A stretch of 41,101 nucleotides of DNA from an uncultured Flavonifractor sp. (lineage in GTDB: Bacteria; Bacillota; Clostridia; Oscillospirales; Oscillospiraceae). Each line of letters starts with the position of its first letter. Position 1 is the stretch's first letter. Under the pieces are notes generated by a model. That model was given only the letters and a program-made list of their open reading frames with translations. It searched no databases and had not been told where the DNA came from. The DNA is taken from assembly GCA_944385575.1 (NCBI GenBank), contig CALWXT010000010.1, forward strand, positions 1 to 41,101. The letters run 5' to 3'. The position numbers and the translations under genes were made by a program. Shown one piece after another: positions 2,376 through 25,283 of the stretch.

Positions 2376-2382
2376 CCCAATT

Positions 2383-2411
2383 ACTATATCATAGCCCGAC
2401 TTATTGTGCAA
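2383..2411 (-). promoter_or_regulatory. Promoter of the helicase gene
   Basis: The minus strand has a -35 TTGCAC and a -10 TATAGT with a 17-nt spacer. The -35 lies inside the last codons of the upstream methyltransferase gene. Confidence 0.75.
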
Positions 2412-3249: not shown

Positions 3250-3292
3250 GGCCGCTCCTCCCTTCCGGGCCCATTCCGACCCATTCTTTCAG

Positions 3293-3321
3293 ATTATACG
3301 GCCCTTTTTCCCCCTTGTAAA
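3293..3321 (-). promoter_or_regulatory. Promoter of the rlmA-like gene
   Basis: The minus strand has a -35 TTTACA and a perfect -10 TATAAT with a 17-nt spacer. Confidence 0.85.
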
Positions 3322-3370
3322 GCGCGTACATCCCTCCCTCGACATTTTTCATCCAAATCCTTCCGTTTTC

Positions 3371-3399
3371 TTGCCTTTTCCGATGCTTCGTACTACAAT
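3371..3399 (+). promoter_or_regulatory. Promoter of the SLH/M15 carboxypeptidase gene
   Basis: A -35 TTGCCT and a -10 TACAAT with a 17-nt spacer lie 39 nt before the chosen start codon. Confidence 0.8.
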
Positions 3400-3437
3400 G
3401 AAACCATCGAAAATAATAAGGGAGCGTGAGGAATTCC

Positions 3438-4919: not shown

Positions 4920-5074
4920 ACAATTCTTAGATTCCTTTATAATACCTTTATATTCTGTTCACAGTCCGTTCACCAACAGGAGAGGTTTCTCGTGTATGAT
5001 GAGCATGTCAGGAAGAAATGACAAACCAACCTCCTCTCTACTCTCTCTTTTACCTCTCTGTTCACACACACACA

Positions 5075-5121
5075 AACAAGAGCGGCCCGCTCCAAAGGAG
5101 CGGGCCGCTCTTGTTTTTTCT
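5075..5121 (+). terminator. Strong intrinsic terminator after the carboxypeptidase gene
   Basis: A perfect 19-bp stem (5075-5093 with 5097-5115) has a 3-nt loop and a following T-rich tail. The 155 nt between the stop codon and this hairpin hold nothing else recognisable. Confidence 0.9.
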
Positions 5122-5130
5122 TTCTTTGGT

Positions 5131-5148
5131 GTACAATATCGTACAATA
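5131..5148. repeat. Tandem GTACAATA repeat upstream of the lysis cassette
   Basis: Two copies of GTACAATA at 5131-5138 and 5141-5148 are separated by TC. Each contains a TACAAT -10-like hexamer, and together they form a near-palindrome GTACAATATCGTAC. This is a candidate operator or promoter; no good -35 is visible. Confidence 0.4.
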
Positions 5149-5152
5149 ACTA

Positions 5153-5190
5153 TCTCTGTTTCCTCCTTTTTAGAAAGGAGGAAGCAGAGA
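5153..5190 (+). promoter_or_regulatory. Hairpin burying the ribosome binding site of the lysis cassette
   Basis: Bases 5153-5169 pair with 5174-5190 over 17 bp (one G-U) around a 4-nt TTAG loop. The 3' arm contains the whole AAAGGAGGAA ribosome binding site and ends on the A of the ATG at 5190. No T-tract follows, so it is not a terminator. Translation of the first gene should be off unless the stem is opened or transcription begins inside it. Confidence 0.75.
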
Positions 5191-5462
5191 TGCTGACTAT
5201 TATTGAAATTGAAGCCCGCGAGGATGGCGGGCACGGACTGCAGAGCCAGAGCCACCGGACGGAATGCTGGCTGGACGGCTGGATCGCAGTACCCCGGGAG
5301 TTGGAGGAGACGGTATGGGGGTGCCGGGGCTACTGCCAGCTGGAAATCCAGGACGGCGTGCTCACCGGGGTGACGTCCGGAGAACCACCAGCTCCGCCTG
5401 AGGCCGAGCCGGGTGTGGATGAGGTATTGAATGCATTACTGGGGGTGAGTGAGCGTGAGTGA
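5190..5462 (+). CDS. Small phage-type protein of unknown function, first in lysis cassette
   Basis: A 90-residue protein with no signal or membrane segment. It has a folded-looking N-terminal part (about 1-60) with a Trp-rich stretch TECWLDGWIAVP, then an acidic, Pro-rich tail (EPPAPPEAEPG). It resembles the short uncharacterised proteins found between tail-fibre and lysis genes of Clostridia phages; that comparison is from memory, not a search. The ATG at 5190 has a perfect AAAGGAGG that is locked in a 17-bp hairpin. Its last codons overlap the next gene, suggesting translational coupling. Confidence 0.7.
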   Translation: MLTIIEIEAREDGGHGLQSQSHRTECWLDGWIAVPRELEETVWGCRGYCQLEIQDGVLTGVTSGEPPAPPEAEPGVDEVLNALLGVSERE

Positions 5463-5895
5463 CCGGCTACAGAGGGCGGAGCAGTTCCGCCGTACCTTAC
5501 AGCTTTTTGCCGCTTCTCTGGAGGAGGAGCGGGCATTGGAAATCCCCACTGTTTTCCCCGCCTACGAGACGGGGAAATCTTATGTCATGGGGGAATATTT
5601 GATCTGCGGCACAAACGCTTTGGGCGATCCACAGCTTTACCGGGTGGTGCAGGACCACATCAGCGCGGCAGAGTGGCCGCCCGCCTCCACCCCCACCCTT
5701 TACACTCCCCTGGGTCTGGACAACAGCGGCTATCCCATCTGGTCCCAGCCCAGCGGCGCCCATGACGCCTACAGCAAAGGAGACATCGTCAATTACAAGG
5801 ACACGCTTTACATCTCCCTCGTGGATGGGAACGTCTGGGCTCCAGACGCATATCCTGAGGGGTGGGAGGTGTATAGCCATGCTGAACAGCCGTAA
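5449..5895 (+). CDS. Phage-type carbohydrate-binding (ChiC/CBM5-12-like) protein
   Basis: A 148-residue protein. After a helical N-terminal segment (about 1-35) it has two units with the pattern of small chitin- or glycan-binding modules: YETGKSYVMGEYLICG (about 39-54) with YRVVQDH and W/P residues, then AYSKGDIVNYKDTLYIS (about 107-123), ending in PEGWEVYS. Such modules occur in phage tail and lysis-region proteins and bind surface glycans. The start is GTG at 5449 (or GTG 5455), overlapping the previous gene by 14 nt. It overlaps the endolysin gene by 17 nt, so the genes are tightly coupled. Confidence 0.7.
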   Translation: MSVSDRLQRAEQFRRTLQLFAASLEEERALEIPTVFPAYETGKSYVMGEYLICGTNALGDPQLYRVVQDHISAAEWPPASTPTLYTPLGLDNSGYPIWSQPSGAHDAYSKGDIVNYKDTLYISLVDGNVWAPDAYPEGWEVYSHAEQP

Positions 5896-6532
5896 CATCG
5901 ACGACCTGCGCTCCGACGTGGCCGCCAACTGCCGGGTCTGGCAGAAACTGTGCAGTCAGGCCGGGCTGCCGGTGTTGGTGACCGGCACCGTGCGGGACGA
6001 GGAATATCAGCTCTACTGTTACAGCATCGGTACCAGTAAAGCCAAGGTACCCAGCTTCCACAGCGTGAAGGCCGGTCTGGCTTTCGACTTCTGTAAAAAC
6101 GTCAAAGGCCACGAGTATGACGATCTGGCCTTTTTCAAGAAAGCCGCTGCTATTGCCAAGGACATGGGCTTTGACTGGGGTGGGGACTGGAAATCCTTTC
6201 CCGACCGGCCCCATATCCAGTGGAGCGATGGCGGACGGTACACCAGCGCCATGATCCGGGCGGGAAACTATCCGCCCGCCATGCCCCTGTACGGCGCCAC
6301 TCAGAAGCCGGAAAAACCCGCTGCGCAGGAACCCAAGGAGGAGAAGGAGGACGACATGCTCATCTATCATCAGATTAAGGAGATGCCCGACTGGGCCCAG
6401 GCCAGCGTGGAAAAGGCGGTGGCCAAAGGCGTGATCAACCAGTCCGCCGACGGCACGGTTAACATTTACGAGCCCAACCTACAGACCATCGTACTGCTGG
6501 ACCGGCTGGGCCTGTTCGACAAGGAGGTGTGA
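5879..6532 (+). CDS. Phage endolysin, M15 family L-Ala-D-Glu / D-Ala-D-Ala type peptidase
   Basis: A 217-residue cell-wall endopeptidase without a signal peptide, so it needs a holin or lysis to reach the wall. The catalytic domain (about 1-125) has the M15 pattern: His61 in SFHSVKAGLAFDF with Asp70, FDWGGDW (about 98-104) and DRPHIQW with His112. A Pro/Glu/Lys-rich linker (about 138-158) leads to a C-terminal module of about 58 residues (MLIYHQIKEMPDWAQASVEK...) like the C-terminal repeats of clostridial phage amidases. The ATG at 5879 follows GGGAGGTG by about 9 nt. It lies between the glycan-binding and holin-like genes, the classic order of a lysis cassette. Confidence 0.85.
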   Translation: MLNSRNIDDLRSDVAANCRVWQKLCSQAGLPVLVTGTVRDEEYQLYCYSIGTSKAKVPSFHSVKAGLAFDFCKNVKGHEYDDLAFFKKAAAIAKDMGFDWGGDWKSFPDRPHIQWSDGGRYTSAMIRAGNYPPAMPLYGATQKPEKPAAQEPKEEKEDDMLIYHQIKEMPDWAQASVEKAVAKGVINQSADGTVNIYEPNLQTIVLLDRLGLFDKEV

Positions 6533-6536
6533 GCCG

Positions 6537-6725
6537 GTGTGGGAACGGCTTGCAAGGCTCATCGATGTTAAAAGCATCGTGACCATCATTTTGACCGGGG
6601 TGTTTTCCGTGCTGGCGATCACGGGCCGAGTACAGGCGGATCAGTTTCTGACGGTCTTTACCGTTATCATCGCTTTTTATTTTGGCACTCAGGCTCAGAA
6701 AATCGCTGACGGCAAAGGGGAATAG
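6537..6725 (+). CDS. Holin-like small membrane protein
   Basis: A 62-residue protein with two likely membrane helices (about 12-31 and 38-54) separated by a short polar turn, and a charged C-terminus (QKIADGKGE). This is the build of small two-helix phage holins, which make the membrane lesions that release endolysin. It starts with GTG 6537, four nt after the endolysin stop, behind an ideal AAGGAGGTG that lies in the last endolysin codons. No paired antiholin is seen. The name rests on size, topology and position rather than a specific motif. Confidence 0.7.
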   Translation: MWERLARLIDVKSIVTIILTGVFSVLAITGRVQADQFLTVFTVIIAFYFGTQAQKIADGKGE

Positions 6726-6805
6726 CGGCCAGGACCGCTTTATCTCTCCACTCCATCTAAAGTGGCATATCTGTCGGCTCGGCCGCAAATAAACGACAAA
6801 AATTC

Positions 6806-6843
6806 AAAGTGGGACGTGCATTACAGCGCGTCCCACTTTTTTA
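6806..6843. terminator. Shared terminator between the holin-like and recombinase genes
   Basis: The 11-bp stem AAAGTGGGACG (6806-6816) pairs with CGTCCCACTTT (6829-6839) and a run of T follows. It sits between convergent genes and has A-rich sequence on the left, so it may act in both directions. The 80 nt before it (6726-6805) show no gene; if this is phage order, attP would be expected here. Confidence 0.85.
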
Positions 6844-7989
6844 TTGCCTGCTGGCGGCAATACAGGCAGCCACGGTATTGAGCACCTCCTGGTGGGTCTG
6901 GTCAAAAATATGGGTATAGACCCGTCCTGTGATGGCACAGTCCTTATGCCCCAATGTCTTTCCTATATCCAGCAAAGGCACCCGGGCGCTGTTTGCCAAG
7001 CTGGCAAAGGTATGGCGCAGCCCGTGGATGGTAATGGGGGGCAGTTCATGTTCCTGGATAAAGCTGTGAAAGTCTCCTGTGACCCGGTTGGGATCGCACG
7101 GTTGGCCATCGGCGCGTACCACCACGTACCCGCTGTCGGTCCAGTGAGGGTCCCCTTGTTTTTTCTGCGCCTGCCGCCCGGCTTCCCGGCGGAGCAGCTC
7201 CTCCAAATCCTCCAAGCCACCAATCCCCAGCCTGCGAATGGAGTGACTGGTCTTTGGCTGCTTGAGCACCACCGTTCCGCCCGCGGTGGTGCGGACCGTG
7301 CGGACATGGATCAGGTGCCGCTCCAGGTCTACATTTTCCCAGCGCAGGCCGCAGATCTCGCTGCGGCGGAGGCCCAAATAGCCCGCCAGCTTGACCACCA
7401 GCTCCAGCGGATGGCCCTCTACCGCAGAAAAGAGGGTGCTCAGCTGCTCAGGCGTGTAAAAATACTGCCGCGGGCAGGCCAAACGGGGCGGCTCCACCCG
7501 GTCCACCGGATTTTCCGAAAGAATGCCCTGCCGGTAAGCCGCCTTCAGGGCGGTGTGGAGCAAAATGTGGTGCTTATGCACCGTATTGGTACTCAGCTTT
7601 TTCTCCCGGAGCATGTCACCGTAGTAGTGCTGAATGGCGCGAGAATCCAGGCTTTGAATCGGGATGCGGCCCAGGGCGGGAATAATATGATTCCACACCA
7701 TTCCCCGGTAGCAATAATACGTGGTCTCCTCCCGGTGTGGGCGAACGATCTCCTCCAGCCAGTAGTCCAGCCATTCTCCCACCGTCATGCGGACCGGAGC
7801 GCGCAATCGGTGTTGAAGCCGCCTGAGCTCAAACTGGCACAGTGCCTCCCGGGCCGTTTCCAGCTCACGGAAAGTCTGGGAGCCCCGTACCCGGCGGCCG
7901 CTGCTGTCACTACCATAATCAAAATAGACGTAATAGCGGCCCTTTTCCTCATCAAAGGCCAGATTTTTTTCAATCCGCTTTCTTGCCAT
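6841..7989 (-). CDS. Tyrosine recombinase (phage integrase family)
   Basis: A 382-residue full-length integrase. It has an N-terminal arm-type DNA-binding region (about 1-60), a SAM-like core-binding domain (about 68-160) and a catalytic domain (about 175-375). All catalytic residues are visible: Arg208 in LGLRRSE, Lys247 in KTSHSIRR, His322 and Arg325 in HGLRHTF, His348 in LGHKD, and the nucleophile Tyr358 in VYTH. It should be active. The ATG at 7989 follows GGGAGGATATC. It converges on the lysis cassette and its 5' end faces SLH-A, 193 nt away, so it could act on its own element or on the inverted repeats of the SLH locus; nothing in the sequence decides this. Confidence 0.95.
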   Translation of the reverse strand: MARKRIEKNLAFDEEKGRYYVYFDYGSDSSGRRVRGSQTFRELETAREALCQFELRRLQHRLRAPVRMTVGEWLDYWLEEIVRPHREETTYYCYRGMVWNHIIPALGRIPIQSLDSRAIQHYYGDMLREKKLSTNTVHKHHILLHTALKAAYRQGILSENPVDRVEPPRLACPRQYFYTPEQLSTLFSAVEGHPLELVVKLAGYLGLRRSEICGLRWENVDLERHLIHVRTVRTTAGGTVVLKQPKTSHSIRRLGIGGLEDLEELLRREAGRQAQKKQGDPHWTDSGYVVVRADGQPCDPNRVTGDFHSFIQEHELPPITIHGLRHTFASLANSARVPLLDIGKTLGHKDCAITGRVYTHIFDQTHQEVLNTVAACIAASRQ

Positions 7990-8033
7990 GATATCCTCCC
8001 TTTCTTTCTCTGTGGCAGGTGGTAAACATTTCT

Positions 8034-8062
8034 ATTTTGTCAGTACCTGCCGCAGCCGTCAA
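8034..8062 (-). promoter_or_regulatory. Possible promoter of the recombinase gene
   Basis: The minus strand has a -35 TTGACG and a 4/6-match -10 CAAAAT with a 17-nt spacer, 45 nt before the start codon. Confidence 0.45.
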
Positions 8063-8088
8063 GCCGGCGACCAATATGGCTACCTGTC

Positions 8089-8129
8089 AGCCCTGTGGCC
8101 TTTGGGCCACAGGGCTTTTTTCTTTTTTT
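8089..8129 (+). terminator. Orphan intrinsic terminator just upstream of SLH-A
   Basis: The 12-bp stem AGCCCTGTGGCC (8089-8100) pairs with 8105-8116, followed by a long T-rich tract (8117-8129). It points along the plus strand, but there is no plus-strand gene upstream that it could serve; the nearest ends at 6725 and has its own terminator. It lies where the SLH-A promoter would be expected. Confidence 0.85.
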
Positions 8130-8152
8130 GCATAAGAGGTCTTCTCCTCTGA

Positions 8153-8253
8153 TGGACAAAATTTTAGAAGGAGGAATTCCGAATGAGAAACCTCAAGCGG
8201 GCGCTGAGCCTGGCTCTGGCTGCCATGATGCTGATCGGCATGATGGTCGTCTC
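8153..8253 (+). repeat. 101-bp inverted repeat, SLH-A copy
   Basis: It is identical over 101 bp to the reverse complement of 14440-14540. It covers the last 30 nt of the 5' UTR, the AAGGAGG site and the first 23 to 24 codons. Similarity continues with scattered, mostly synonymous changes to about 8830. Immediately upstream only the short block GAGGTCTTCTC is shared. Confidence 0.95.
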
Positions 8254-10753
8254 TGCCGGCGCCGCCTACAAGGATTTCACCGACAAGGATGAGATCCAGC
8301 ACACTGAGGCTGTCAACACTCTCGTTACCCTGAATGTGATCGGCGGTAAGGAAGACGGCAGCTACTTCGATCCCACTGGCACCCTGACCCGTGCCGAGAT
8401 GGCCAAGCTGGTCACCTTCGTGCTGAACGGCGGCGTGGAGCCTGTTCTGGGCGAGAAGGTCACCCCCACCTACAAGGACATCGACGGCCACTGGGCTGAG
8501 AAGTACATCGAGTACTGCACCAGCATGGGCATCATTGTGGGCGACGGCTCCGGCAAGTTTAATCCCGAGGGCACTCTGACCGCTTCTCAGTGCGCCAAGA
8601 TGCTGCTGACCGCTATGAACTACAAGGACGACATCTTTGGGTTCACCGGTAGCAGCTGGGAGATCAACGTCAACCGTGAGGCTAATGCCGCCGGCCTGTA
8701 CAAGGAGCTGAAGGGCATTTCCGCTTCCGCTCCCATCAGCCGCGACAACGCTGCTCAGATGGTGTACAACGCCATCCAGTCCCAGACCATGGAGCTGTCC
8801 TGGACTCAGGACAAGGAGACTGGCGAGATCAGCCAGCACTATGAGCTGAAGGGCCCCTCTCTGTTCGCTGACAAGTTCGACGGCGAGATCTGGGAGGGTG
8901 TGCTGCAGGCCAGCGGCAACATGAATGCTTATGGCAACACCGCTGCCGGCAAGGAGAAGGTTGCCATCAACGCCACCGTGAAGGACGGCGACGAGATCAC
9001 CGCCACCGATAAGGGCTTCAAGTACGCTGTTGACTGCACCGACCTGATGGGCGAGTACGTCAAGGTTCTGTACAGCACCAAGGAGAAGGAAGCTTACGGC
9101 GTCTATCCTGTTGCCTCTGAGAACACCATCGTGATCGACACCACCGTGGGCGCTCTGAGCGACATCGGCAAGACCGCCAACACCCTGAAGTTCGACGGCA
9201 CCACCTATGATGTGAAGGCTGGCGCTGTTGTAGTCTACTACAACGGTACCGCTTGGGATAACTCCAAGGCCATCATGACTCTGGGCACCGACACCGCTTT
9301 CACCAACTATGACAACGTCAAGCTGGTGGACAACGACGGCGACGAGAAGATCGACACCGCTATCGTGACCGTCAACCAGATCGAGAAGGTCACCTACGTT
9401 GGCTCCGATGCCATTACCCTGACCAACAAGGGCCAGGTGAAGGCTTCTGACGCTGTGTACTCCGATCTGGCTGTGAACGACTATGTCAGCTATGTGAACG
9501 CTGCTTACAGCTACGACAGCAAGGCTGTTCTGACCGAGGCCACCACCATGTCCGGCGAGGTCAACGAGGTCAGCAAGAACAGCTCCAACCAGGTCAACAA
9601 GGTGAAGGTTGACGGCGAGTGGTACACTCTGGGCCAGCAGGATGGCACCGCCACCCCCGTCGTCGACAAGGACGGCAACGAGCTGAGCTACAAGTCCACC
9701 TATGACTTTGTGCTGTACAACGGCTATGTCGTTGTGGCTGACAAGACCCTGGGCAACGGCACCAAGATCGCTGTCATCACCGGCACCACTTCTAACAGCG
9801 ACTACGACGGCAACACCCAGGTCCGCCTGCTGCTGGCCGACGGCACCACTGTTGAGGGTTACGCCAAGACCGCTTCCGGTGCTAACACCACTGGCGATCT
9901 GGTGACCTACACCATCAAGGACGGCATCTATCAGCTGAAGGCCGCTTCCAACACCGACGACGAGACCCGTGCCGGCTATGATGCCTATGTTTCCGGCGCT
10001 GGCTGGGACAAGGACGCCAAGACTGTTGCTGGCAAGAAGATCAACGACTCCGCCGTTGTCTTCGTGCAGTACGACAAGGATCTGAGCACCTCCGCCATTG
10101 AGCAGGGCTTCAAGGTCACCACCGGTGCTGAGATCAACTCCTGGAAGGCTGCCACTTGGGGCACTGCCGGCGAGGTTCTGTACAACAACACCGGCCTGGG
10201 TTACGCTGACGTCGTCTACATTGTGGGCAATGCTCAGACTGCCACTCCCGGTATCAAGAGCAACGCCGCTTACATCACCTCTGGTATCACCCAGGGCAGC
10301 GATTCCACCGGCGACTACTCTGCCTTCACCATCTGGGATGGCACCGACTCCATCAACGTGATTGTCCGCTCCACTCTGACTTCCGGCATCACCAAGGGCG
10401 CTGTCATTACCTTCGACTGGGATGGCGAGAACGAGCTGAAGAATGTTGTTGCTGTTGACGCCGCCACCAAGACTGGTGCTCTGACCTTCAGCAACGGCAA
10501 GCAGGTGAAGATCGACACCACCGGCTATGATCTGGCTGATGACGTGACTATCATCAACGTTTCCACCAAGGATTACGCTGGTGTGGCCGGCAACGCCATT
10601 GCTACCGCCGCTCAGACCTCTACCGTTGGTACCTACAACAAGAACTGCTGGTACACCACCAACGGTGACGGCGAGATCGATCTGCTGGTCATCGACGTGA
10701 CCTCCAACAAGCTGGATAACGTCGGCGCTGGCACTGTCGTTGTTAATCCCTGA
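8183..10753 (+). CDS. SLH-domain surface protein A (S-layer type), probably silent
   Basis: An 856-residue secreted surface protein. A Sec signal peptide (cleavage near SAGA, about residue 27) is followed by three SLH repeats (about 30-205: GGKEDGSYFDPTGTLTRAEM, DIDGHWAEKYIEY, GIIVGDGSGKFNPEGTLT). These anchor proteins to wall polymer. A Gly/Thr/Val/Asp-rich beta-type region of about 640 residues with few or no Cys follows, as in S-layer exposed domains. Codon use is narrow (GGC, AAG, ACC, CTG), typical of very highly expressed genes. The ATG at 8183 has AAGGAGG 8 nt upstream. The first 210 residues are about 85% identical to SLH-B and the remainder is different. No promoter is seen; an orphan terminator occupies that place. 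Confidence 0.9.
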   Translation: MRNLKRALSLALAAMMLIGMMVVSAGAAYKDFTDKDEIQHTEAVNTLVTLNVIGGKEDGSYFDPTGTLTRAEMAKLVTFVLNGGVEPVLGEKVTPTYKDIDGHWAEKYIEYCTSMGIIVGDGSGKFNPEGTLTASQCAKMLLTAMNYKDDIFGFTGSSWEINVNREANAAGLYKELKGISASAPISRDNAAQMVYNAIQSQTMELSWTQDKETGEISQHYELKGPSLFADKFDGEIWEGVLQASGNMNAYGNTAAGKEKVAINATVKDGDEITATDKGFKYAVDCTDLMGEYVKVLYSTKEKEAYGVYPVASENTIVIDTTVGALSDIGKTANTLKFDGTTYDVKAGAVVVYYNGTAWDNSKAIMTLGTDTAFTNYDNVKLVDNDGDEKIDTAIVTVNQIEKVTYVGSDAITLTNKGQVKASDAVYSDLAVNDYVSYVNAAYSYDSKAVLTEATTMSGEVNEVSKNSSNQVNKVKVDGEWYTLGQQDGTATPVVDKDGNELSYKSTYDFVLYNGYVVVADKTLGNGTKIAVITGTTSNSDYDGNTQVRLLLADGTTVEGYAKTASGANTTGDLVTYTIKDGIYQLKAASNTDDETRAGYDAYVSGAGWDKDAKTVAGKKINDSAVVFVQYDKDLSTSAIEQGFKVTTGAEINSWKAATWGTAGEVLYNNTGLGYADVVYIVGNAQTATPGIKSNAAYITSGITQGSDSTGDYSAFTIWDGTDSINVIVRSTLTSGITKGAVITFDWDGENELKNVVAVDAATKTGALTFSNGKQVKIDTTGYDLADDVTIINVSTKDYAGVAGNAIATAAQTSTVGTYNKNCWYTTNGDGEIDLLVIDVTSNKLDNVGAGTVVVNP

Positions 10754-10781
10754 TCTAGTTGATCAGCAGGTTCTTTAACTA

Positions 10782-10830
10782 AAACAATGGGCTTCCCGGT
10801 TTATCCGGGAAGCCCATTGTTTCTTTTTTA
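10782..10830. terminator. Terminator between SLH-A and fibre-like gene 1
   Basis: An almost perfect 18-bp stem (10782-10799 with 10805-10822) is followed by TTTCTTTTTT. Its left flank is A-rich, so it can serve both convergent genes. Confidence 0.9.
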
Positions 10831-11226
10831 CCGGAAAGCCAGGTATTGAAAGACAGTGGCCTCGGTATTCGGAACTCCGCTTACTTCAAAACCATCTTCC
10901 ACAATACGTTGCGTGCCTCTTTCCCAACCAGTGGCGCCTTCACATGTGACATCAGGGTAAATCACATTGCAGTTGCTGCTGACGCCATGGGTTGGCACAT
11001 ATTCAAAGTTCGCTGATCCGAGAATCACAAATTTGGGTTTGAAGCCAAGGTTGATCGTGTTTTTCTCAGTGTTGACGCCGGTACCCGTGTATGTTCCGGC
11101 TACTACCTCGCACTTGCCTCCCAAAGCCGTATCAATTTTCCCAAGGTCCGTGTTGAAGTCGGTGCGCAGAAAGTCATCATTGGGCTCCCATTGATGCAGC
11201 CCATAGTGTTCCGTATAAGATGCCAT
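10828..11226 (-). CDS. Phage tail-fibre-like small protein 1
   Basis: A 132-residue protein with no signal peptide. The N-terminal 40 residues (YTEHYGLHQWEPNDDFLRTD) form a motif common at the start of phage tail-fibre proteins in Clostridia. The C-terminal part has the pattern GTYTGTGVNTEKNTINLGFKP, then a variable middle and an aromatic end (VFQYLAFR), like a small beta-sandwich receptor-binding head. Function in this context is unknown. The ATG at 11226 follows AAAGGGAGG. It converges on SLH-A and is paralogous to the fibre-like gene at 11436 (about 70% identical over the first 38 residues, different middle). Confidence 0.75.
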   Translation of the reverse strand: MASYTEHYGLHQWEPNDDFLRTDFNTDLGKIDTALGGKCEVVAGTYTGTGVNTEKNTINLGFKPKFVILGSANFEYVPTHGVSSNCNVIYPDVTCEGATGWERGTQRIVEDGFEVSGVPNTEATVFQYLAFR

Positions 11227-11435
11227 GTTGCATTCCTCCCTTTACCCTTGCGCGGCAGCGCCTTCAAGGTGTACGCCTGCCGCGCCGGGGTATTTGTCAT
11301 GCTCCGGTCCGGAGATTTTCCCTTTAAAAGGGACTTTCTTCGGCCTTTTTGTTTCGCCCGGGCACGGAAAAAGCCCCCGCCTTTTTGCTGTACAACAAAA
11401 GCCGAGGTCCCAAGAGGTATAGAGGGGGTTATAGC
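11227..11435. other. Intergenic region between the two divergent fibre-like genes
   Basis: This 209-nt stretch has no gene that I can support and no convincing promoter for either fibre-like gene. It contains a 9-bp inverted repeat, GCGCGGCAG with CTGCCGCGC, around an 18-nt loop (about 11249-11284), and the short palindrome CCCTTTAAAAGGG (about 11320-11332). Confidence 0.5.
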
Positions 11436-11849
11436 ATGGCAAACTATACACAGAACTATCAGCTCCACCAGTGGGAGCCGGACGACCATTTTCTGCGCAC
11501 CGATTTCAACACGGACCTTGAAAAAATAGACGACGCCCTGGGGGAAAAAAGCGGGATCGTGACAGGCACATATACCGGTAACAGCAGCGCCAGCCAGTCT
11601 GTCAATCTGGGTTTTCAGCCCAAGGCTGTTCTGGTCATGGAAAGCTCCGGCCTGGCAGCTTCCACCAGCGGCTCCACACCTCAGGTATATGGCGGCCTGG
11701 CCTTGTGGAACAAACCAGTACAGAACACGGCAGACAAAATATCTCTAAAGCTGACCACCACGGGCTTTACCGTATACAACTACTCTGATTACGACTATAT
11801 CCGGATTAACCGCAGCGGCAACACCTATCACTATATGGCGGTACGCTGA
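11436..11849 (+). CDS. Phage tail-fibre-like small protein 2
   Basis: A 137-residue paralogue of fibre-like protein 1, divergent from it. The conserved N-terminal block YTQNYQLHQWEPDDHFLRTD (about 4-23) is followed by a C-terminal domain with GTYTGNSSASQSVNLGFQPKA, a Ser/Gly-rich middle and an aromatic end (YHYMAVR). There is no signal peptide or membrane segment. The ATG at 11436 has AGAGGGGG upstream; longer frames start inside the intergenic region without a binding site. It converges on SLH-B, so each SLH gene is paired tail-to-tail with one fibre-like gene. Glycan or surface binding is the family-based guess. Confidence 0.75.
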   Translation: MANYTQNYQLHQWEPDDHFLRTDFNTDLEKIDDALGEKSGIVTGTYTGNSSASQSVNLGFQPKAVLVMESSGLAASTSGSTPQVYGGLALWNKPVQNTADKISLKLTTTGFTVYNYSDYDYIRINRSGNTYHYMAVR

Positions 11850-11867
11850 ACGGGCGCAGAATGCAAG

Positions 11868-11907
11868 AACAAGCCCCCGGACATTGTCCGGGGGCTTGTT
11901 GCTTGTT
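11868..11907. terminator. Terminator between fibre-like gene 2 and SLH-B
   Basis: A perfect 15-bp stem (11868-11882 with 11886-11900) has a 3-nt loop, then GCTTGTTT. It is the mirror-image counterpart of the terminator at 10782. Confidence 0.8.
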
Positions 11908-11930
11908 TACCTGTATCTGTTCAGAACAGA

Positions 11931-14510
11931 TTAGGCAATGTCAGCCTCATTGGAGGTCTCGATGATGATGTGAGTGATCACGTCATCGGAGTTCACAATG
12001 ATCAGAGCATTGTACAGGTCGGTGATGTCATCATAGGTGTTGATGCCGATCTCGTCGCCAGCCTTGTCGTCCTTGCAGTTGACGTACAGGACAGTCAGGT
12101 CATCAGCAACAGCCTTGGTGGTGGTGGTGCTGAAGGTGGCGTCGGGAGCGGAGCCGGAGCGGCCGGTCAGGTAGGTCAGCAGCTTGTCGGACTCATCATA
12201 GGTCTTGATGGCAGCCTGAGTACCGCCGTGAGCCTGGAAAGCGGTGGAAGCATAGGTGTCGTCGGAGGTGGGCTCGTACTTGTAGATGGTGCCAACAGTC
12301 AGAGTGCCACCGGTCTTCACCTTAACGGTCTTCTCGCCGTCGGTGGTCCACAGGGTGTAGCTGGTGTACACGGTGTCGTCAACCTTGACGGTACCGTTGT
12401 CGGCGGTCACCATGCCGTAGATGGCAGTGGAGGTGGCGCCAGAGGGAGTGCTGCCCAGCTCGATGGAGGCGGCAACAACCTTGCCGTCCTTCACGATGAT
12501 CTTGCAAGCCTTGCCGGCGGTGTCGATGTCGCCCAGGCTGCGGATGTTGTAGGCCTTGTACTCGCTGCCCACGTTCACGAACAGAACGGCGTCGCCAGCG
12601 GTCACAGTGCCCTCAACGGTCTTGGAGGTCTTGTTGTAGAAGTTGGCAGTGCTGGTGGAAGCGCCGCTGGTGGCCTCAACCTTCACCAGAGCCTTGTCGG
12701 CAGAGCCAGTGTAGGTGACGATGTCGCCCACGTTGGGAGTGGCGGTGGAGTCCTTGTCAACGGTGATAATGGTCTTGGTGCCGTCGGCAGCCAGAACCTG
12801 CAGCTTCAGGGGGTTGAAGGTGTCGCCCTTGATACCGTCCTTAGCCAGGACCAGGGAGTAGTTGCTGGCAGACTCGGTGGTCTGAACAGCAGCGCGGACA
12901 TAGCCGTTCACCAGATACAGGTCGAACTTCTCGCCGATCTCGGTGCTGGTGATACCAGTCTTCACGCCGGACAGGCCAGCCAGGGAGCCCATCATGGCCA
13001 CCTTGCCATACACCTTGTAGGCGGTGCCGTCCAGGGTGATGGTCTCGTTGGGAGTGCCCTTGTAGCCGTTCACGGTACCGGACACGACCTCAGCCTTCTC
13101 CACGATGGTGTAAGCACCGTCAGCGGTGGCGGAGGACTTGTACAGGGTGGTAACAACGACAACGTCGTTCTTGGCAATGCCCTCGTACAGCTCGTTGTCA
13201 GCGATGGTGATGGAGCCGACGCCGTTCAGGCTGACCTTCTCCTTGTTGACAGCGGTCACGTAGGACAGGGTGGACTCAACAACGTAAGCCTTGGCAATCT
13301 TGCCGTCGGAGTTGAAGATGAACTTCACGGTGTCGCCCTTCTGAGAGGCCAGGCCCTCGATGGCAGCCTTGGTGCCAGCAGCAGTAGCAGCACCGGCGGT
13401 CACGGAGGAAGCGCCGTAGTTCTTCACAACAACAACAGTGGTAGCAGCGGCAGCGGCGGCCACGTCATACTTCACGCCGTCGATCTGGACCTTGCCAGCG
13501 TTCTCGCCAGCGCTGCCCAGGTCGCCCTTGATGCCGTTAACAGTGCTGTTCAGCACCTGGGTGGAACCGGTGTTGTACACACCATAGATGGTGTCCTTCT
13601 TGTCGGGCTGGTTGGCGATGCCGCCAGTGCCGTCCTTGAAGAGCACGCGAACCTGCTCGCCGATGTTGGACAGAGCCAGGTCGGAGGGGAAGCTAGCGGT
13701 GCGGTCGCCGGTGTTCTCGGTCTCCAGGCGGCCGTACACAGCGATCTCGCCGTCCACGCCAGTAGCGCCGGAAGCCTTGTTGCCGTTGAAGGTGCCGACG
13801 AACACCTGGCCGCCGAACTTGTCAACGAACAGGGGGTTGCCGGACAGGGTGTACTGCTGAGTGATCTGACCAGTGGTCATGTCCTGGCTCCAGGACAGCT
13901 TCATGGTCTTGGACTGGATGGCGTTGTAAACCATCTGAGCGGCATTGTCGCGGGTGATGGGGTCGGAAGCAGAGACGCCGCCCAGCTCCTTGTACAGACC
14001 AGCGGCATTAGCCTCACGGTTGACGTTGATCTCCCAGCTGTTGCCAACAAAGCCGAACACGTCGTCCTTGTAGTTCATGGCAGTCAGCAGCATCTTGGCG
14101 CACTGAGAAGCGGTCAGGGTGCCCTCGGGATTGAACTTGCCGGTGCCGTCACCAACAATGATGTTCATGCTGGTGCAGTACTCGATGTAAGCCTCAGCCC
14201 AGTGGCCCTTGATGTCCTTGTAAGTAGGAGTGACCTTGGTGCCCAGGACAGGCTCGACACCGCCGTTCAGCACGTAGGTGACCAGCTTGGCCATCTCGGC
14301 ACGAGTCAGGGTGCCATTGGGGTCGAAGTAGCTGCCGTCCTCCTTGCCGCCGATAACATTCAGGGCAACGAGAGTGTTGACAGCCTCAGAGTGCTTGATC
14401 TCATCCTTATCGGTGAAATCCTTGGTAGCCGCGCCGGCGGAGACGACCATCATGCCGATCAGCATCATGGCAGCCAGAGCCAGGCTCAGCGCCCGCTTGA
14501 GGTTTCTCAT
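11931..14510 (-). CDS. SLH-domain surface protein B (S-layer type), expressed copy
   Basis: An 859-residue secreted surface protein. The signal peptide is identical to that of SLH-A up to residue 23-24. Three SLH repeats follow (about 30-205), then a long beta-type, Thr/Gly/Ala/Val-rich exposed region unrelated in detail to SLH-A. Codon use is strongly biased toward a few codons, as in major S-layer genes. The ATG at 14510 follows AAGGAGG. Unlike SLH-A it has a near-consensus promoter 70 nt upstream with a dyad over the -35, and it is therefore the likely expressed copy in this orientation. The first 210 residues are about 85% identical to SLH-A. It is likely to be a dominant cell-surface protein. 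Confidence 0.92.
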   Translation of the reverse strand: MRNLKRALSLALAAMMLIGMMVVSAGAATKDFTDKDEIKHSEAVNTLVALNVIGGKEDGSYFDPNGTLTRAEMAKLVTYVLNGGVEPVLGTKVTPTYKDIKGHWAEAYIEYCTSMNIIVGDGTGKFNPEGTLTASQCAKMLLTAMNYKDDVFGFVGNSWEINVNREANAAGLYKELGGVSASDPITRDNAAQMVYNAIQSKTMKLSWSQDMTTGQITQQYTLSGNPLFVDKFGGQVFVGTFNGNKASGATGVDGEIAVYGRLETENTGDRTASFPSDLALSNIGEQVRVLFKDGTGGIANQPDKKDTIYGVYNTGSTQVLNSTVNGIKGDLGSAGENAGKVQIDGVKYDVAAAAAATTVVVVKNYGASSVTAGAATAAGTKAAIEGLASQKGDTVKFIFNSDGKIAKAYVVESTLSYVTAVNKEKVSLNGVGSITIADNELYEGIAKNDVVVVTTLYKSSATADGAYTIVEKAEVVSGTVNGYKGTPNETITLDGTAYKVYGKVAMMGSLAGLSGVKTGITSTEIGEKFDLYLVNGYVRAAVQTTESASNYSLVLAKDGIKGDTFNPLKLQVLAADGTKTIITVDKDSTATPNVGDIVTYTGSADKALVKVEATSGASTSTANFYNKTSKTVEGTVTAGDAVLFVNVGSEYKAYNIRSLGDIDTAGKACKIIVKDGKVVAASIELGSTPSGATSTAIYGMVTADNGTVKVDDTVYTSYTLWTTDGEKTVKVKTGGTLTVGTIYKYEPTSDDTYASTAFQAHGGTQAAIKTYDESDKLLTYLTGRSGSAPDATFSTTTTKAVADDLTVLYVNCKDDKAGDEIGINTYDDITDLYNALIIVNSDDVITHIIIETSNEADIA

Positions 14511-14540
14511 TCGGAATTCCTCCTTCTAAAATTTTGTCCA
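14440..14540 (-). repeat. 101-bp inverted repeat, SLH-B copy
   Basis: It is the exact reverse complement of 8153-8253. Weaker identity continues inward to about 13860. Recombination between the two copies would invert about 6.2 kb. Confidence 0.95.
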
Positions 14541-14580
14541 CCTAGGAGAGAAGACCTCCCCTTCATGAACTTACATGCAT

Positions 14581-14609
14581 AATATACACGACCACCCCCC
14601 AACCGTCAA
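14581..14609 (-). promoter_or_regulatory. Promoter of SLH-B
   Basis: The minus strand has a -35 TTGACG and a -10 TATATT with a 17-nt spacer. It gives a leader of about 65 nt that contains the repeated block. Confidence 0.85.
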
Positions 14610-14620
14610 GCGTTTGACGG
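14603..14620. promoter_or_regulatory. Operator-like dyad over the SLH-B -35
   Basis: A perfect inverted repeat, CCGTCAA, 4 nt, TTGACGG, overlaps the -35 element. It is a candidate binding site for a regulator of S-layer expression. Confidence 0.5.
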
Positions 14621-14817
14621 GCTTTGTAACGAAAGCGTAATATAAGCCCCGCTCTTTTTCCGAGCTTTTTCTTCTGCTTCCAGATCGTGCAGTTTTACGC
14701 ATGCTTTCTATGGTTTTAGACGCTAATTGTGGAATTTTGTTCCCACCCTTTTTGGTTTTTTCAAAAAAGTTGCACGGGCACGTACACCTATCTGTTATAT
14801 ATTTAAGGTAGGCCCCG
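14621..14817. other. AT-rich gap without a gene
   Basis: About 200 nt between the SLH-B promoter and the tRNA terminator. I see no gene, no repeat and no duplicated tRNA end in it. Confidence 0.6.
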
Positions 14818-14855
14818 GGCAAAACAAAAAGGACATCCTTTCGGATGTCCTTTTT
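14818..14855 (-). terminator. Terminator of the tRNA cluster
   Basis: On the minus strand AAAAAGGACATCC pairs with GGATGTCCTTTTT around a GAAA loop (14826-14838 with 14843-14855), followed by GTTTTG. It starts 3 nt after the CCA of tRNA-Val. Confidence 0.9.
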
Positions 14856-14857
14856 GC

Positions 14858-14933
14858 TGGTGGAGACGACAGAACTCGAATCTGTGACCCCTTGCGTGTG
14901 AAGCAAGTGCTCTACCGGCTGAGCTACGCCTCC
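14858..14933 (-). tRNA. tRNA-Val (anticodon CAC)
   Basis: A complete 76-nt cloverleaf with encoded CCA. The acceptor is GGAGGCG with CGTCTCC, the D arm GCTC/GAGC, and the anticodon stem CTTGC/GCAAG around TTCACAC, giving anticodon CAC. The T arm is ACAGA/TCTGT. It reads GUG codons and is the last of three tRNAs in the cluster. Confidence 0.97.
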
Positions 14934-14937
14934 ATAT

Positions 14938-15012
14938 TGGTGACCCGTACGAGACTCGAACTCGTGTTACCGCCGTGAAAGGGCGGTGTCTTAACCACTT
15001 GACCAACGGGCC
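14938..15012 (-). tRNA. tRNA-Glu (anticodon TTC)
   Basis: A complete 75-nt tRNA with encoded CCA. The anticodon stem is CCGCC/GGCGG around CTTTCAC, giving TTC. It is 4 nt from tRNA-Val, so the two are surely co-transcribed. Confidence 0.97.
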
Positions 15013-15054
15013 ATGTTGCCCAAGCGGGCGGGAACCGCTTCCCATAAATGGAGT

Positions 15055-15084
15055 CCCAAAAGACGGCGTGTGCCGTCTTTTGGG
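15055..15084 (-). terminator. Terminator-like hairpin between tRNA-Met and tRNA-Glu
   Basis: A 13-bp stem (15055-15067 with 15072-15084) has a 4-nt loop. Its core GACGGC/GCCGTC is flanked by AAAA and TTTT, as in a weak bidirectional terminator, and it lies 3 nt after the tRNA-Met CCA. It may attenuate transcription into the next two tRNAs or guide 3' processing. Confidence 0.55.
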
Positions 15085-15087
15085 TCT

Positions 15088-15164
15088 TGGTAGCGGCACC
15101 TGGATTTGAACCGGGGACACTGCGGGTATGAACCGCATGCTCTAGCCAACTGAGCTATGCCGCC
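15088..15164 (-). tRNA. tRNA-Met (anticodon CAT), elongator type
   Basis: A 77-nt tRNA with encoded CCA. The anticodon stem is TGCGG/CCGCA around TTCATAC. The body (GGCGGCA acceptor, GCATGCGG region) is that of elongator tRNA-Met rather than initiator or the lysidine-modified tRNA-Ile2. The T stem has one C-A mismatch (CCCGG against CCAGG), which is unusual. Confidence 0.9.
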
Positions 15165-15195
15165 GTTTCTTGCCCGGACGAACAGGGCAAGAGAT

Positions 15196-15224
15196 AGTAT
15201 AGCCGATTCTTTTCCACTTGTCAA
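15196..15224 (-). promoter_or_regulatory. Promoter of the tRNA cluster
   Basis: The minus strand has a perfect -35 TTGACA and a -10 TATACT with a 17-nt spacer. Confidence 0.9.
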
Positions 15225-15248
15225 CAGCTTTTTTCTATTTTTTCAAAT

Positions 15249-15944
15249 TTAATCGATCTTATACCCGACGCCCCAAACCGTCTTGATAAAACGGGGGTTC
15301 CGGGAGGGCTCGCCCATCTTCTCCCGCAGGCGGCGGATATGGACCATCACCGTATTGTTCCGATCCAGATACTTCTCCTTCCACACCGACTCAAACAGCC
15401 GCTCGGCGGAGATTACTTGCCCCCGGTTCTCGCACAGCATCCACAGGATATCAAATTCAATGGGGGTGAGCCCCAGCTCCTTGTCGTACAGCCAGCACTC
15501 ATGGGTAGAGCGGTTGATGACCAGGCCGTTGAAGTCGATGATGTCCCGGCTGTCGGGGGCCTTCTCTGCCTCATTGTACCGGGTGTACCGGCGCAGCTGG
15601 GCCTTCACCCGGGCCATCAGCTCCAGGGGATTGAAGGGCTTGGTAATATAGTCGTCTGCCCCGATGGTCAGGCCGGTGATCTTGTCGATGTCCTCCGCCT
15701 TGGCAGTCACCATGAGCACGGGGAAATGGTGATCCTTGCGGATCTCCCCGCAGAGGGTAAAGCCGCTGATATCGGGCAGCATGACATCCAGAATGGCCAG
15801 ATCCAGCCGCTGGCTGTTTACCACCTCCAGGGCCTGAGTGCCGGTGAGACACTTGAACACGGTGCAGCCCTCGCTTTTCAGATAGACCTCCACCAGGTCG
15901 GCAATCTCCGGCTCGTCATCCACCACCAGGATATTGGCGTCCAT
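15249..15944 (-). CDS. OmpR/PhoB-family response regulator, VanR-like
   Basis: A 231-residue two-component regulator. The receiver domain (about 1-120) has Asp10, the phospho-acceptor Asp53 (AILDVMLPD), Thr80 and Lys102 (TKPFNP). The C-terminal winged helix (about 135-231) has the family ending FIKTVWGVGYKI. Overall it resembles VanR-type regulators. The start is ATG 15944, behind AAAGGAGGGG; an upstream in-frame ATG lacks a binding site. No kinase adjoins it on its own strand; the VanS-like kinase lies 1.7 kb away in the divergent operon, so the pair appears split. It is divergent from the SprT-like gene. Confidence 0.9.
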   Translation of the reverse strand: MDANILVVDDEPEIADLVEVYLKSEGCTVFKCLTGTQALEVVNSQRLDLAILDVMLPDISGFTLCGEIRKDHHFPVLMVTAKAEDIDKITGLTIGADDYITKPFNPLELMARVKAQLRRYTRYNEAEKAPDSRDIIDFNGLVINRSTHECWLYDKELGLTPIEFDILWMLCENRGQVISAERLFESVWKEKYLDRNNTVMVHIRRLREKMGEPSRNPRFIKTVWGVGYKID

Positions 15945-15968
15945 GCTCTCCCCTCCTTTTTCCGCTAC

Positions 15969-15998
15969 ATTATAATATGTATCAGGCAAGACCGTCAA
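15969..15998 (-). promoter_or_regulatory. Promoter of the VanR-like gene
   Basis: The minus strand has a -35 TTGACG and a perfect -10 TATAAT with an 18-nt spacer. Confidence 0.75.
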
Positions 15999-16052
15999 GG
16001 CGCGGGGCATATCGTAAGAAAATCATCATAACTTCCCTTCCCGGTGCAAGTA

Positions 16053-16081
16053 GTGACTTTTGCTGGGAAAAATGATACAAT
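16053..16081 (+). promoter_or_regulatory. Possible promoter of the SprT-to-GNAT operon
   Basis: A -10 TACAAT lies at 16076-16081 with a weak -35 GTGACT 17 nt upstream. Confidence 0.45.
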
Positions 16082-16112
16082 GCCTGGTATGCAAATCCCC
16101 TGGAGGCAGAGT

Positions 16113-16598
16113 ATGGATCGTTTTGATGAATTGCTCTCCCGGGTACTGGAACAAGCCCGGTCCCTGGGCATTCCGGTATCGGGACGCATTGACCCTCATG
16201 TGCGGGTCAACCGCCGGGCAGTGACCCGGTTCGGCTGCTGCATCCGCCAAAAGGACGGCAGCTTTGTTATTGAGCTGACCCACCGGCTGCTGGACGCCTC
16301 CGACCGGGCCTGTCTTCAGACCCTGGCCCACGAAGCCCTCCACACCTGTCCCGGCTGCCGGAACCACGGTGCGCTATGGCGAACCTATGCCGGGCAGATG
16401 AACGCCGCCTTTGGCTACGCCATCTCCCGTACCGGCACCTGCGGGGAGCTGGGGGTGCCGGATGAGCGGCCGGTGCGCTATCTGCTGGTATGCAGCCGCT
16501 GCGGGCGTGAATTCCCCCGGATGAAGGCTTCGCCCCTGGTGCGCCACCCGGAACGCTACCGGTGCAGGTGCGGCGGAACGCTGCTGCGGAAGGATTGA
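16113..16598 (+). CDS. SprT-like zinc metallopeptidase
   Basis: A 161-residue SprT-like protein. The zincin motif HEALH (His73, Glu74, His77) is followed by CPGCRNHG with a third His at about 85. A C-terminal zinc ribbon has CSRCG and a CRCGG pair. SprT proteins resemble the protease core of eukaryotic Spartan; the bacterial role is not settled. The start is ATG 16113, behind TGGAGGC; earlier in-frame ATGs lack a binding site. It heads a four-gene run with the flippase-like protein, the kinase and the acetyltransferase. Confidence 0.8.
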   Translation: MDRFDELLSRVLEQARSLGIPVSGRIDPHVRVNRRAVTRFGCCIRQKDGSFVIELTHRLLDASDRACLQTLAHEALHTCPGCRNHGALWRTYAGQMNAAFGYAISRTGTCGELGVPDERPVRYLLVCSRCGREFPRMKASPLVRHPERYRCRCGGTLLRKD

Positions 16599-16617
16599 TG
16601 ATAAGGAGGGACTCTCC

Positions 16618-17673
16618 ACGGAAAAACGGAGCAAGAAGGCCCTGTTCAACCGGATCTTCTCCATTGTCGGCTTAACCATTGGCGGAGGAATCCTAGCGGG
16701 GCTGGTGGTCCATGTGGGCCGCACCATGGACCTGCGGGCACTGCTGGCGGGTATGGAGCCGCTGTGGCTGGCGGCCGCCGCCCTGTGCGTGCCGGTGAGC
16801 GAGAGCGTGGACGCCCTCATCTTCTACGGTATGGGCCGCTCCCTGGACTGTCCGGTGCGGCTGGCCGGCTGCTTTGACGCGGCCTATATCGGAGAATTTT
16901 ATTACAAGCTGGGCCCCGCCGGCGCGCCGGTGCAGCTCAAGCTAATGTATGACGCGGGAATGCCCGCCACCCAGACCGCCTCTATTTACACCTGGAAGGC
17001 GGTGGCCAACACCATGGTGTACACCTGCTACGCCGTGGCCGCCCTGGCCTACGAGCTGTTCTGGCGGCAGGAGGGACTGGGCTCAGCGGTGATCGGGGCG
17101 GGCCTGCTCATCGCCCTGTACCTGTTCCTGTGCGGCCTGGCCCTGTTTACCGCCGTGCGGCCGGAGCCCATCCAGCGGCTCATCCGGCGCATTCTCACCT
17201 TTCTCTCCCGACACTGGAAGGTGATGGCCAAACCGGGGATGGTAGACAAGGGCATGGACAAGGTGGCAGAATTCTGCGGCCAGCTGCGCTCCCTGAAGGA
17301 AAACCGCAGGATGTTTTTGGGTCTCTACCTGGGCATGTTTGTGGAACTCACCGTGCTGTTTTCCGTTCCCTTCTTCCTCTACCGGGGTCTGGGGCTTACC
17401 GGCTGCTCCTACTGGGAAATGGTGATGGTCCAGTGCCTGGTGATGGTGCTCTCCCGCATCATCATGCTCCCCGGCAACGCCGGCGGCGCGGAGGGCAGCT
17501 TCTATCTGTTTATGGGTCCCATCTTCGGCCGGCATCTGGCAGTGGGGATGGTGCTGTGGCGGTTCGCCACCTTCCTGGATGTCATGCTGGTGGGCGGGCT
17601 GTGGTCGGTGGTGCGGTTTGCCAAGCGCTCCGTGGCCCGGCATCATACGGAAGGAAGGCAGAGCCATGAATGA
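16618..17673 (+). CDS. Lysylphosphatidylglycerol-synthase-TM / flippase-like membrane protein, probable ACG start
   Basis: A multi-spanning membrane protein of about 351 residues with the build of the UPF0104 family (the MprF flippase-like domain). Helices lie near residues 14-33, 47-65, 130-165 and 225-320, and the family-like segment LPGNAGGAEGSF is near 280. The first ATG/GTG/TTG in frame is GTG 16705, which would remove the first helix and has a poor binding site. In contrast AAGGAGG at 16603-16609 stands 8 nt before an in-frame ACG at 16618, which opens a basic N-terminus (EKRSKKALFNR) and a proper first helix. I therefore take ACG as the start, or as a mutated ATG. It overlaps the kinase gene by 8 nt. 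It probably moves a lipid-linked substrate. Confidence 0.75.
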   Translation, partial: TEKRSKKALFNRIFSIVGLTIGGGILAGLVVHVGRTMDLRALLAGMEPLWLAAAALCVPVSESVDALIFYGMGRSLDCPVRLAGCFDAAYIGEFYYKLGPAGAPVQLKLMYDAGMPATQTASIYTWKAVANTMVYTCYAVAALAYELFWRQEGLGSAVIGAGLLIALYLFLCGLALFTAVRPEPIQRLIRRILTFLSRHWKVMAKPGMVDKGMDKVAEFCGQLRSLKENRRMFLGLYLGMFVELTVLFSVPFFLYRGLGLTGCSYWEMVMVQCLVMVLSRIIMLPGNAGGAEGSFYLFMGPIFGRHLAVGMVLWRFATFLDVMLVGGLWSVVRFAKRSVARHHTEGRQSHE

Positions 17674-19508: not shown

Positions 19509-19519
19509 GGGCGGCAGCC

Positions 19520-19547
19520 TTGACTTTTCCCCTCTATGGGTTATAAT
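19520..19547 (+). promoter_or_regulatory. Promoter of the radical SAM gene
   Basis: A -35 TTGACT and a perfect -10 TATAAT with a 16-nt spacer. Confidence 0.85.
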
Positions 19548-19609
19548 AATCCTGTTCATACCCAATTTTTGCGTGTTTTTTCGGATTTTTGTCAGGAGGC
19601 TCTTTTATC

Positions 19610-25264: not shown

Positions 25265-25283
25265 GCCCGCCCGGAGCCCACAC

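Follow-up and report, generated by a model that had tools for sequence, protein, structure and literature searches.

A probable site-specific inversion switch joining one of two SLH-domain surface-protein genes to a single promoter in Flavonifractor

In Campylobacter fetus, surface-layer (S-layer) switching at sapA uses a single promoter and inverts DNA that lies between conserved 5′ regions; it proceeds by homologous recombination and is not known to involve a dedicated integrase. For Lactobacillus acidophilus, a 1996 report by Boot is said, going by its title, to describe an active and a silent S-layer gene that are interchanged by inversion of a 6-kb chromosomal segment; Lactobacillus S-layer proteins are not known to be of the SLH type. 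Here we analyze a 41,101-nt stretch of DNA from an uncultured Flavonifractor sp. (GenBank assembly GCA_944385575.1, contig CALWXT010000010.1, positions 1 to 41,101 of the forward strand; hereafter, the window). The window is contig C10 of a metagenome-assembled genome (G000) of 2.65 Mb and 82% completeness, and it contains two convergent genes for SLH-domain proteins, SLH-A and SLH-B, with the gene of a tyrosine recombinase, Int, beside them. From the sequence evidence, we consider it probable, at roughly 0.8, that this locus is a site-specific inversion switch, in which Int would recombine two short cores and thereby place SLH-A or SLH-B behind one promoter. The locus resembles sapA in its S-layer-type genes, conserved 5′ regions and single promoter, and differs in having a linked integrase.

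The closest working analogue would be the Vpma/Xer1 system of Mycoplasma agalactiae; the present locus has SLH proteins instead, and asymmetric sites of a lambda-like kind. The mycoplasma system has one unique promoter, to which silent genes are joined by inversion; recombination sites of 72 nt in the 5′ untranslated region (UTR), of which 21 bp are fully identical; and a locus with terminators and a tyrosine recombinase gene, its workings having been shown by mutants and complementation (PMC2268961). The resemblance thus covers the single promoter, inversion, 5′ UTR sites, terminators and linked recombinase: in the present locus one promoter and a linked tyrosine recombinase are found, the leader copies of one genome that have the core nearly always carry an identical short 5′ UTR site, and both orientations are present, between species only. 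The differences are that the products are SLH proteins here and lipoproteins there, that the Vpma gene cluster is larger, and that the sites here are asymmetric, with arm-like repeats, no asymmetric arm sites being described for Vpma in the passages of PMC2268961 that were consulted. In addition, Vpma switching was demonstrated experimentally, whereas the present case is known by comparison of genomes alone.

The first-pass annotation of the window had named slpA/slpB of L. acidophilus as a known analogue. Its layout is indeed similar, with two S-layer genes, a segment of about 6 kb, and one gene active and one silent, but we place Vpma/Xer1 closer. A linked integrase is not mentioned for slpA/slpB in the passages of PMC6015585 that were consulted; here Int is linked. 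The CwpV/RecV system of Clostridioides difficile also shares features with this locus, namely a clostridial cell-wall protein, a tyrosine recombinase and terminator logic. There, 21-bp repeats 195 bp apart enclose an element that switches a single gene on and off by flipping; this element has neither promoter nor open reading frame, and recV is unlinked (PMC2784873). Because whole genes would be exchanged here, not a promoter or leader element, the locus differs from cwpV and fim. A promoter inverton of the fim/cwpV type was rejected, the promoter (14581-14609) lying outside the segment between the cores (8137-14557). In 2025, a survey of invertons across a defined gut community linked Clostridia inverton groups to tyrosine recombinases; in the main text of that survey, the terms S-layer, SLH and surface layer do not occur. 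Among the titles listed from a literature collection that covers few subscription journals, none describes a switch of this kind in Flavonifractor, Oscillibacter or Dysosmobacter.

The features that make up the proposed switch are the following.

6841-7989, minus strand: Int, a 382-aa tyrosine recombinase of the lambda/Tn1549 type
8089-8116, plus strand: intrinsic terminator before SLH-A, a hairpin plus T run
8137-8146, plus strand: recombination core AGGTCTTCTC, integrase side, putative crossover site
8153-8253, plus strand: 101-bp identical block, copy 1, with ribosome-binding site (RBS), start and signal-peptide codons
8183-10753, plus strand: SLH-A, apparently promoterless surface-layer-type gene, 856 aa (Pfam, promoter scans)
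11436-11849, plus strand: small gene 2, encoding 137 aa; its match to DUF7483 is weak and does not reach the cut-off
11931-14510, minus strand: SLH-B, the gene at the promoter, 859 aa (Pfam)
14440-14540, minus strand: 101-bp identical block, copy 2
14548-14557, minus strand: recombination core AGGTCTTCTC, promoter side, putative crossover site
14581-14609, minus strand: locus promoter TTGACG-17-TATATT (consensus scan; a like site at 17 of 17 promoter copies)

Both SLH proteins match PF00395 (SLH), with two stretches per protein at <0.001 (Pfam), and both have a signal peptide by our reading by eye, as is proper to SLH-domain surface proteins. We regard them as surface-layer-type, putative S-layer proteins. 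Across the N-terminal 236 aa, 202 residues are identical (86%; about 85% had been claimed), while the C-terminal bodies differ, as was also claimed, with 27% identity across 387 aa. In the DNA, this similarity takes the form of inverted arms of 735 nt (8153-8887 and 13806-14540; 88% identity), within which the 101-bp block is identical, from 30 nt 5′ of the ATG to 71 nt counted from the ATG. The two opposed genes with this block, the promoter of SLH-B, the terminator before a promoterless SLH-A, and the complete recombinase gene beside one repeat had all been noted in the first-pass annotation, and our scans agree with it on each. A search of the same genome with a 791-nt leader query returned two long matches and one 32-nt match (E 9.5e-4), yet PF00395 has 85 domain matches in that genome.

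A consensus scan of the plus strand between the integrase gene and SLH-A, covering sigma-70 sites as did all our promoter scans, found no sigma-70-like site. Judged by mononucleotide-shuffled 58-nt sequences, the terminator hairpin has a z of -5.8, and hairpins of different sequence are found at the equivalent place in G004, G009 and G013. SLH-A would then be silent behind this terminator. In the genus set (20 genomes, all of which gave some match to the 791-nt query), 65 leader copies were collected from fetched loci, 62 of them at E 1e-10 or better and 42 of these 62 with the core. Exactly one leader copy with a conserved promoter region was found in 17 of the 20 genomes. A sigma-70-like site precedes 17/17 of these promoter copies vs 0/24 assessable silent copies, assessable meaning that the copy has the core and enough upstream sequence. 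All nine promoter copies of clade 2 lie beside the upstream gene cluster C0, and seven of them also beside C2; most of their SLH bodies differ, although G003 and G007 share one (77%). Silent and promoter copies on the same contig form inverted pairs in eight of nine cases. The inversion switch at one promoter that had been proposed for the window is thus supported genus-wide in its logic of one promoter copy and promoterless partners; one of the changes to it concerns the likely point of exchange.

The two leaders had been described as simply diverging just outside the 101-bp repeat. They do not: after 6 and 7 nt, both share AGGTCTTCTC again, a motif with three matches in the window vs 0.07 expected (the third at 24219-24228). 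In general, leader copies of one genome differ on the left and turn identical at the core, whose distance to the ATG is 43-51 nt (60 nt in a single copy). The core reads WKGTYYCCT in most copies, and between species its variants include AGGTCTTCT, AGGTCTCCT, AGGTTTCCT, ATGTTCCCT, ATGTCCCCT and ATGTTTCCT. For pairs drawn from the 42 of 62 copies that match the pattern (20 being left out), core letters 2-8 are identical in 41/43 within-genome pairs vs 113/818 between-genome pairs; by label permutation, p is 0.009 for clade 1 (6/8 pairs) and 5e-5 for clade 2 (35/35). Within genomes, the ten letters to the left of the core have an identity of 0.19-0.78 and positions +1 to +8 one of 0.95-1.00, and in G015 the copies have only ATGTTCCCT in common before they diverge again. 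Tyrosine recombinases require identity between partner sites in the overlap region, and a core that is nearly constant within genomes and variable between species fits this demand. The crossover is most likely at the 10-bp core, just outside the 101-bp block. A finer mapping of the crossover, read from the letters to the right of the core, agrees with G000 and G013 but not with G018, and is kept as weak.

Int is intact, has a Phage_integrase domain, and is divergent from SLH-A. R208, H322, R325, H348 and Y358 are invariant in a 14-row alignment of relatives; we take these to be the R-H-R-H-Y catalytic set of tyrosine recombinases. An AlphaFold model (mean predicted local distance difference test score 86) begins with N-terminal beta strands followed by a helix, and its best solved folds are the Tn1549 integrase (6en2, TMt 0.79) and lambda integrase (1z1b, 371 columns, root-mean-square deviation 10.7); no Pfam arm-binding domain was found in Int. 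The Tn1549 and lambda integrases integrate and excise mobile DNA; Int has the same recombinase fold, but sits at an SLH locus. Relatives at 58% identity or more occur in 17 of the 20 genus genomes, its own included, and Int adjoins a core in 13 of these 17. Int is thus a conserved partner of the SLH locus, and would act as recombinase at the cores. Wider in GTDB, 80 of 413 loci with Int relatives were examined. Among these 80, strong SLH-leader matches lie beside relatives of at least 58% identity and beside one distant relative, L184. The notion of a prophage or mobile-element integrase was set aside; relatives of 42-51% identity at the examined loci lack a facing SLH pair, and six of these loci (L122, L138, L144, L145, L149 and L155) have some other SLH gene (E 1e-14 to 1e-22). 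Seven integrase neighborhoods inspected by eye include one after an smpB-like gene and three after a common chromosomal gene. At L125, L126 and L174, Int relatives (46-49%) have tandem direct repeats in the locus, which could be another recombination system.

A comparison of orientation in close relatives, as the first-pass annotation had proposed, gave a positive answer at the species level. G013 is collinear with the window at both flanks (2281-8883 and 13899-19982), and between them the part corresponding to window 11406-14558, with SLH-B and small gene 2, is inverted. In G017, the SLH-B cassette (81.5% over 3.5 kb) adjoins the integrase gene, and the opposite end has tRNA-Val and the promoter copy. 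The SLH-B body is 59% identical to the integrase-side gene of G013 and 76% identical to that of G017, and small gene 2 lies inside the block that travels with SLH-B in both. On a cut 3.6-kb contig of G018, the body next to the promoter is B-like (63% over 93 aa). The SLH-B cassette thus occupies the promoter side in the window and G018 but the integrase side in G013 and G017. For the SLH-A body, the five best matches among the compared bodies are 27-30% identical.

The mechanism that we propose is as follows. One promoter would remain at a fixed chromosomal site, while each SLH gene would bring its own RBS and signal peptide, with the short core in front. Int, or less likely homologous recombination, would exchange the cores at 14548-14557 and 8137-8146, whereupon the 6.4-kb segment between them would flip and either SLH-A or SLH-B would meet the promoter; the inversion would be reversible in one strain. 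The terminator would keep the parked SLH gene off. The long identical leader suggests that gene conversion homogenizes the leaders in addition.

The silent site has a further feature.

8066-8084, plus strand: GGCGACC-5-GGCTACC, a direct repeat resembling arm sites, whose units begin 71 and 59 bp to the left of the core

This repeat has one match in the window and in the genome, where a reversed control, at up to 3 mismatches, also gave one match. Across the genus, silent sites have GGCTACC repeats on the flank side of the core. A strict arm pattern gave 12 matches in 8 of the 20 genomes (reversed control 0); 11 of them belong to silent leaders, and the remaining one to a contig end that has core and RBS. 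For 15 of the 17 clade-2 copies, the repeats begin at a distance of exactly 79 and/or 68 bp to the left of the core (67 bp in two), a near-constant spacing even though the distance from core to ATG runs from 43 to 50; in the four copies of clade 1, they start at 71-72 and/or 59-60. Arms are present in 21/24 assessable silent copies with the core vs 0/17 promoter copies. Lambda integrase uses arm plus core sites. The N-terminal domain of Int may bind the GGCTACC arms. The G017 integrase has no recognizable N-terminal domain (match from residue 61, or from 27 by tblastn). Because promoter and arms lie outside the flipped segment, both would stay put, so that every exchange would regenerate both site types and one lambda-type integrase could keep swapping. 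Whether the site roles are built in in this way, with attP-like silent sites (core plus arms) and a single attB-like expression site (core without arms), we regard as an even question.

A second lineage pairs a like layout with another integrase. At L184, from an uncultured Clostridia genome (isolate name Lapin; G060), the integrase is 31% identical to Int of the window, and the leader block occurs twice in the genome. This integrase is found in G060, G061 and G064 at 96-100% identity, vs 50% or less in the rest of the 59 genomes searched. All three follow the same plan: the integrase gene is accompanied by an SLH gene that lacks a promoter and by a second, convergent SLH gene, 5.9-6.1 kb distant, that has a promoter region. 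At L184, the far gene is preceded by TTGCAA-17-TATTAT (9/12 consensus letters), and no sigma-70-like site was found on the plus strand for the near gene. Over its first 150 columns, the leader is 100% identical within G060, 100% within G061 and 95% within G064, vs 89-94% between species. The N-terminal DNA of the G060 integrase side is 84.1% identical to the G064 promoter side, and that of the G060 promoter side 78.0% to the G064 integrase side; like sides are 75.3% and 76.2% identical. The G061 comparison resolves nothing, and the bodies are too alike within G060 and G061, so no orthologues were called. Possibly, this second integrase was recruited separately to a like layout.

Several observations weigh against an Int-driven switch. 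Opposite placements are seen between species, and it is from these that we infer inversion within one strain. The promoter-side body of G013 is not an SLH-A orthologue, and inversion alone does not convert G013 to the window; the other slot being non-orthologous, cassettes must be replaced as well as inverted. The G018 letters right of the core depart from the B haplotype, and the pair in G002 is in direct orientation. A promoter copy was not found in G005, G006 and G012, even by the clade-2 pattern with 3 mismatches, and Int has no adjoining core in four of its 17 genomes (G003, G007, G011, G019). The armless silent copies are the integrase-side copy of G002, despite its full-length Int, and both silent copies of G017. 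The pattern used to find cores itself fixes some letters, so that weight can be placed only on the variable ones. Finally, exact repeats of 101 bp in G000 and 529-530 bp in G017 and G002 require gene conversion or recent duplication beyond recombination at the core.

These homogenized leaders, together with the leader identity within G060 and G061, would be expected if the inversion were real but ran through homologous recombination between long conserved 5′ regions, with the integrase a mere neighbor. We think this rather unlikely, since 13 of 17 genomes have Int next to a core, identity starts sharply at the same core, the G015 copies share only that core before they diverge again, the arms keep a near-fixed distance, and an integrase accompanies the layout in the second lineage as well. 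The between-species nature of the placement contrast, and the fast turnover of SLH bodies seen in the distant best matches of SLH-A, would also suit a static pair of paralogues that diverged after inverted duplication, the species differences being gene replacement. Collinear flanks around an inverted inner cassette that includes small gene 2 argue against it, as do the single promoter copy in 17 of 20 genomes and the identity of core and leader within genomes, and we judge it quite improbable. Expression of both SLH genes, with SLH-A served by a non-sigma-70 promoter or by read-through, is improbable too: our scans cover sigma-70 sites only, but a terminator lies between Int and SLH-A, hairpins recur at its place in three relatives, and silent and promoter copies divide cleanly by their sigma-70-like sites. 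An assembly artefact of the repeat is very improbable. The window, G013 and G017 assemblies are incomplete and fragmented, and the contigs of several relatives end at leaders, as any repeat would cause; however, facing leader-SLH pairs beside Int also occur in contigs titled as strains An112 and AGMB03687, and the exact repeats in G000 (101 bp) and G013 (65 bp) are short.

If the proposed switch is real, much of the gut commensal genus Flavonifractor would have a phase-variable surface protein, which would bear on phage receptors, recognition by the immune system and the typing of strains. A lambda/Tn1549-type integrase would then serve as a coat-protein switch, in which asymmetric sites fix one expression site. 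Strains An10, An112, An82 and AGMB03687 have public genomes and are suited to testing it.

Twenty of the 62 leader copies, including 12 in G002, 3 in G006 and 3 in G014, have no core and may sit outside the switch; for one of them, a contig end interrupts the sequence. A sigma-70-like site precedes 3 of 19 such copies, e.g., G002:C10:212048. The 12 further SLH genes of G002, on its contigs C10 and C5 (L092-L099), have a similar leader, and 10 of them have another common upstream stretch with CGTCATACG. In G010, the promoter and integrase flanks (contigs C1 and C11; L073, L074) do not face each other, and each faces another silent copy, which suggests long-range rearrangement through the leaders. 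A leader-bearing IMG/VR contig (L224, IMGVR_UViG_3300018479_000093) was set aside and not used. In it, a reverse transcriptase like those of diversity-generating retroelements and a variable protein (by eye) are joined to a truncated SLH N-terminus; owing to this phage-SLH join and to its start, presumably an Illumina adapter-like sequence, it was taken as a probable chimera.

Other features of the locus are listed here.

8034-8062, minus strand: possible Int promoter TTGACG-17-CAAAAT, 9/12 consensus letters, a candidate from sequence
10828-11226, minus strand: small gene 1, in the inner segment, encoding 132 aa; no family reaches the cut-off
14623-14640, minus strand: TTACGCTTTCGTTACAAA box upstream of the promoter, counted genome-wide as TTACGCTTNNGTTACAAA

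The TTACGCTTNNGTTACAAA motif occurs once in each of 12 of the 20 genomes and is absent from the other eight (reversed control 0); slight variants are present in G002, G004, G009, G014 and G017. Small genes 1 and 2 are related to each other and stand divergently in mid-segment. Their relatives lie between the SLH genes in several species and, in G007, G011 and G019, directly upstream of the integrase gene and divergent from it (by eye). In the window, the integrase gene is adjoined by SLH-M15 peptidase, carbohydrate-binding module and endolysin-like genes (3426-6532), some of which match phage families. On the promoter side are a VanR-family response regulator (15249-16010, minus strand; above the cut-off of one NCBIfam model) and a VanS-like kinase below cut-off (17579-18847, plus strand), with a flippase-like gene between them. 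Farther off, a 92-nt direct repeat (25177-25268 and 25370-25461; 93% identity) at a gene end is a partial gene-end duplication, and an ssnA RNA motif at 40556-40604 (plus strand) scores above the Rfam gathering threshold.

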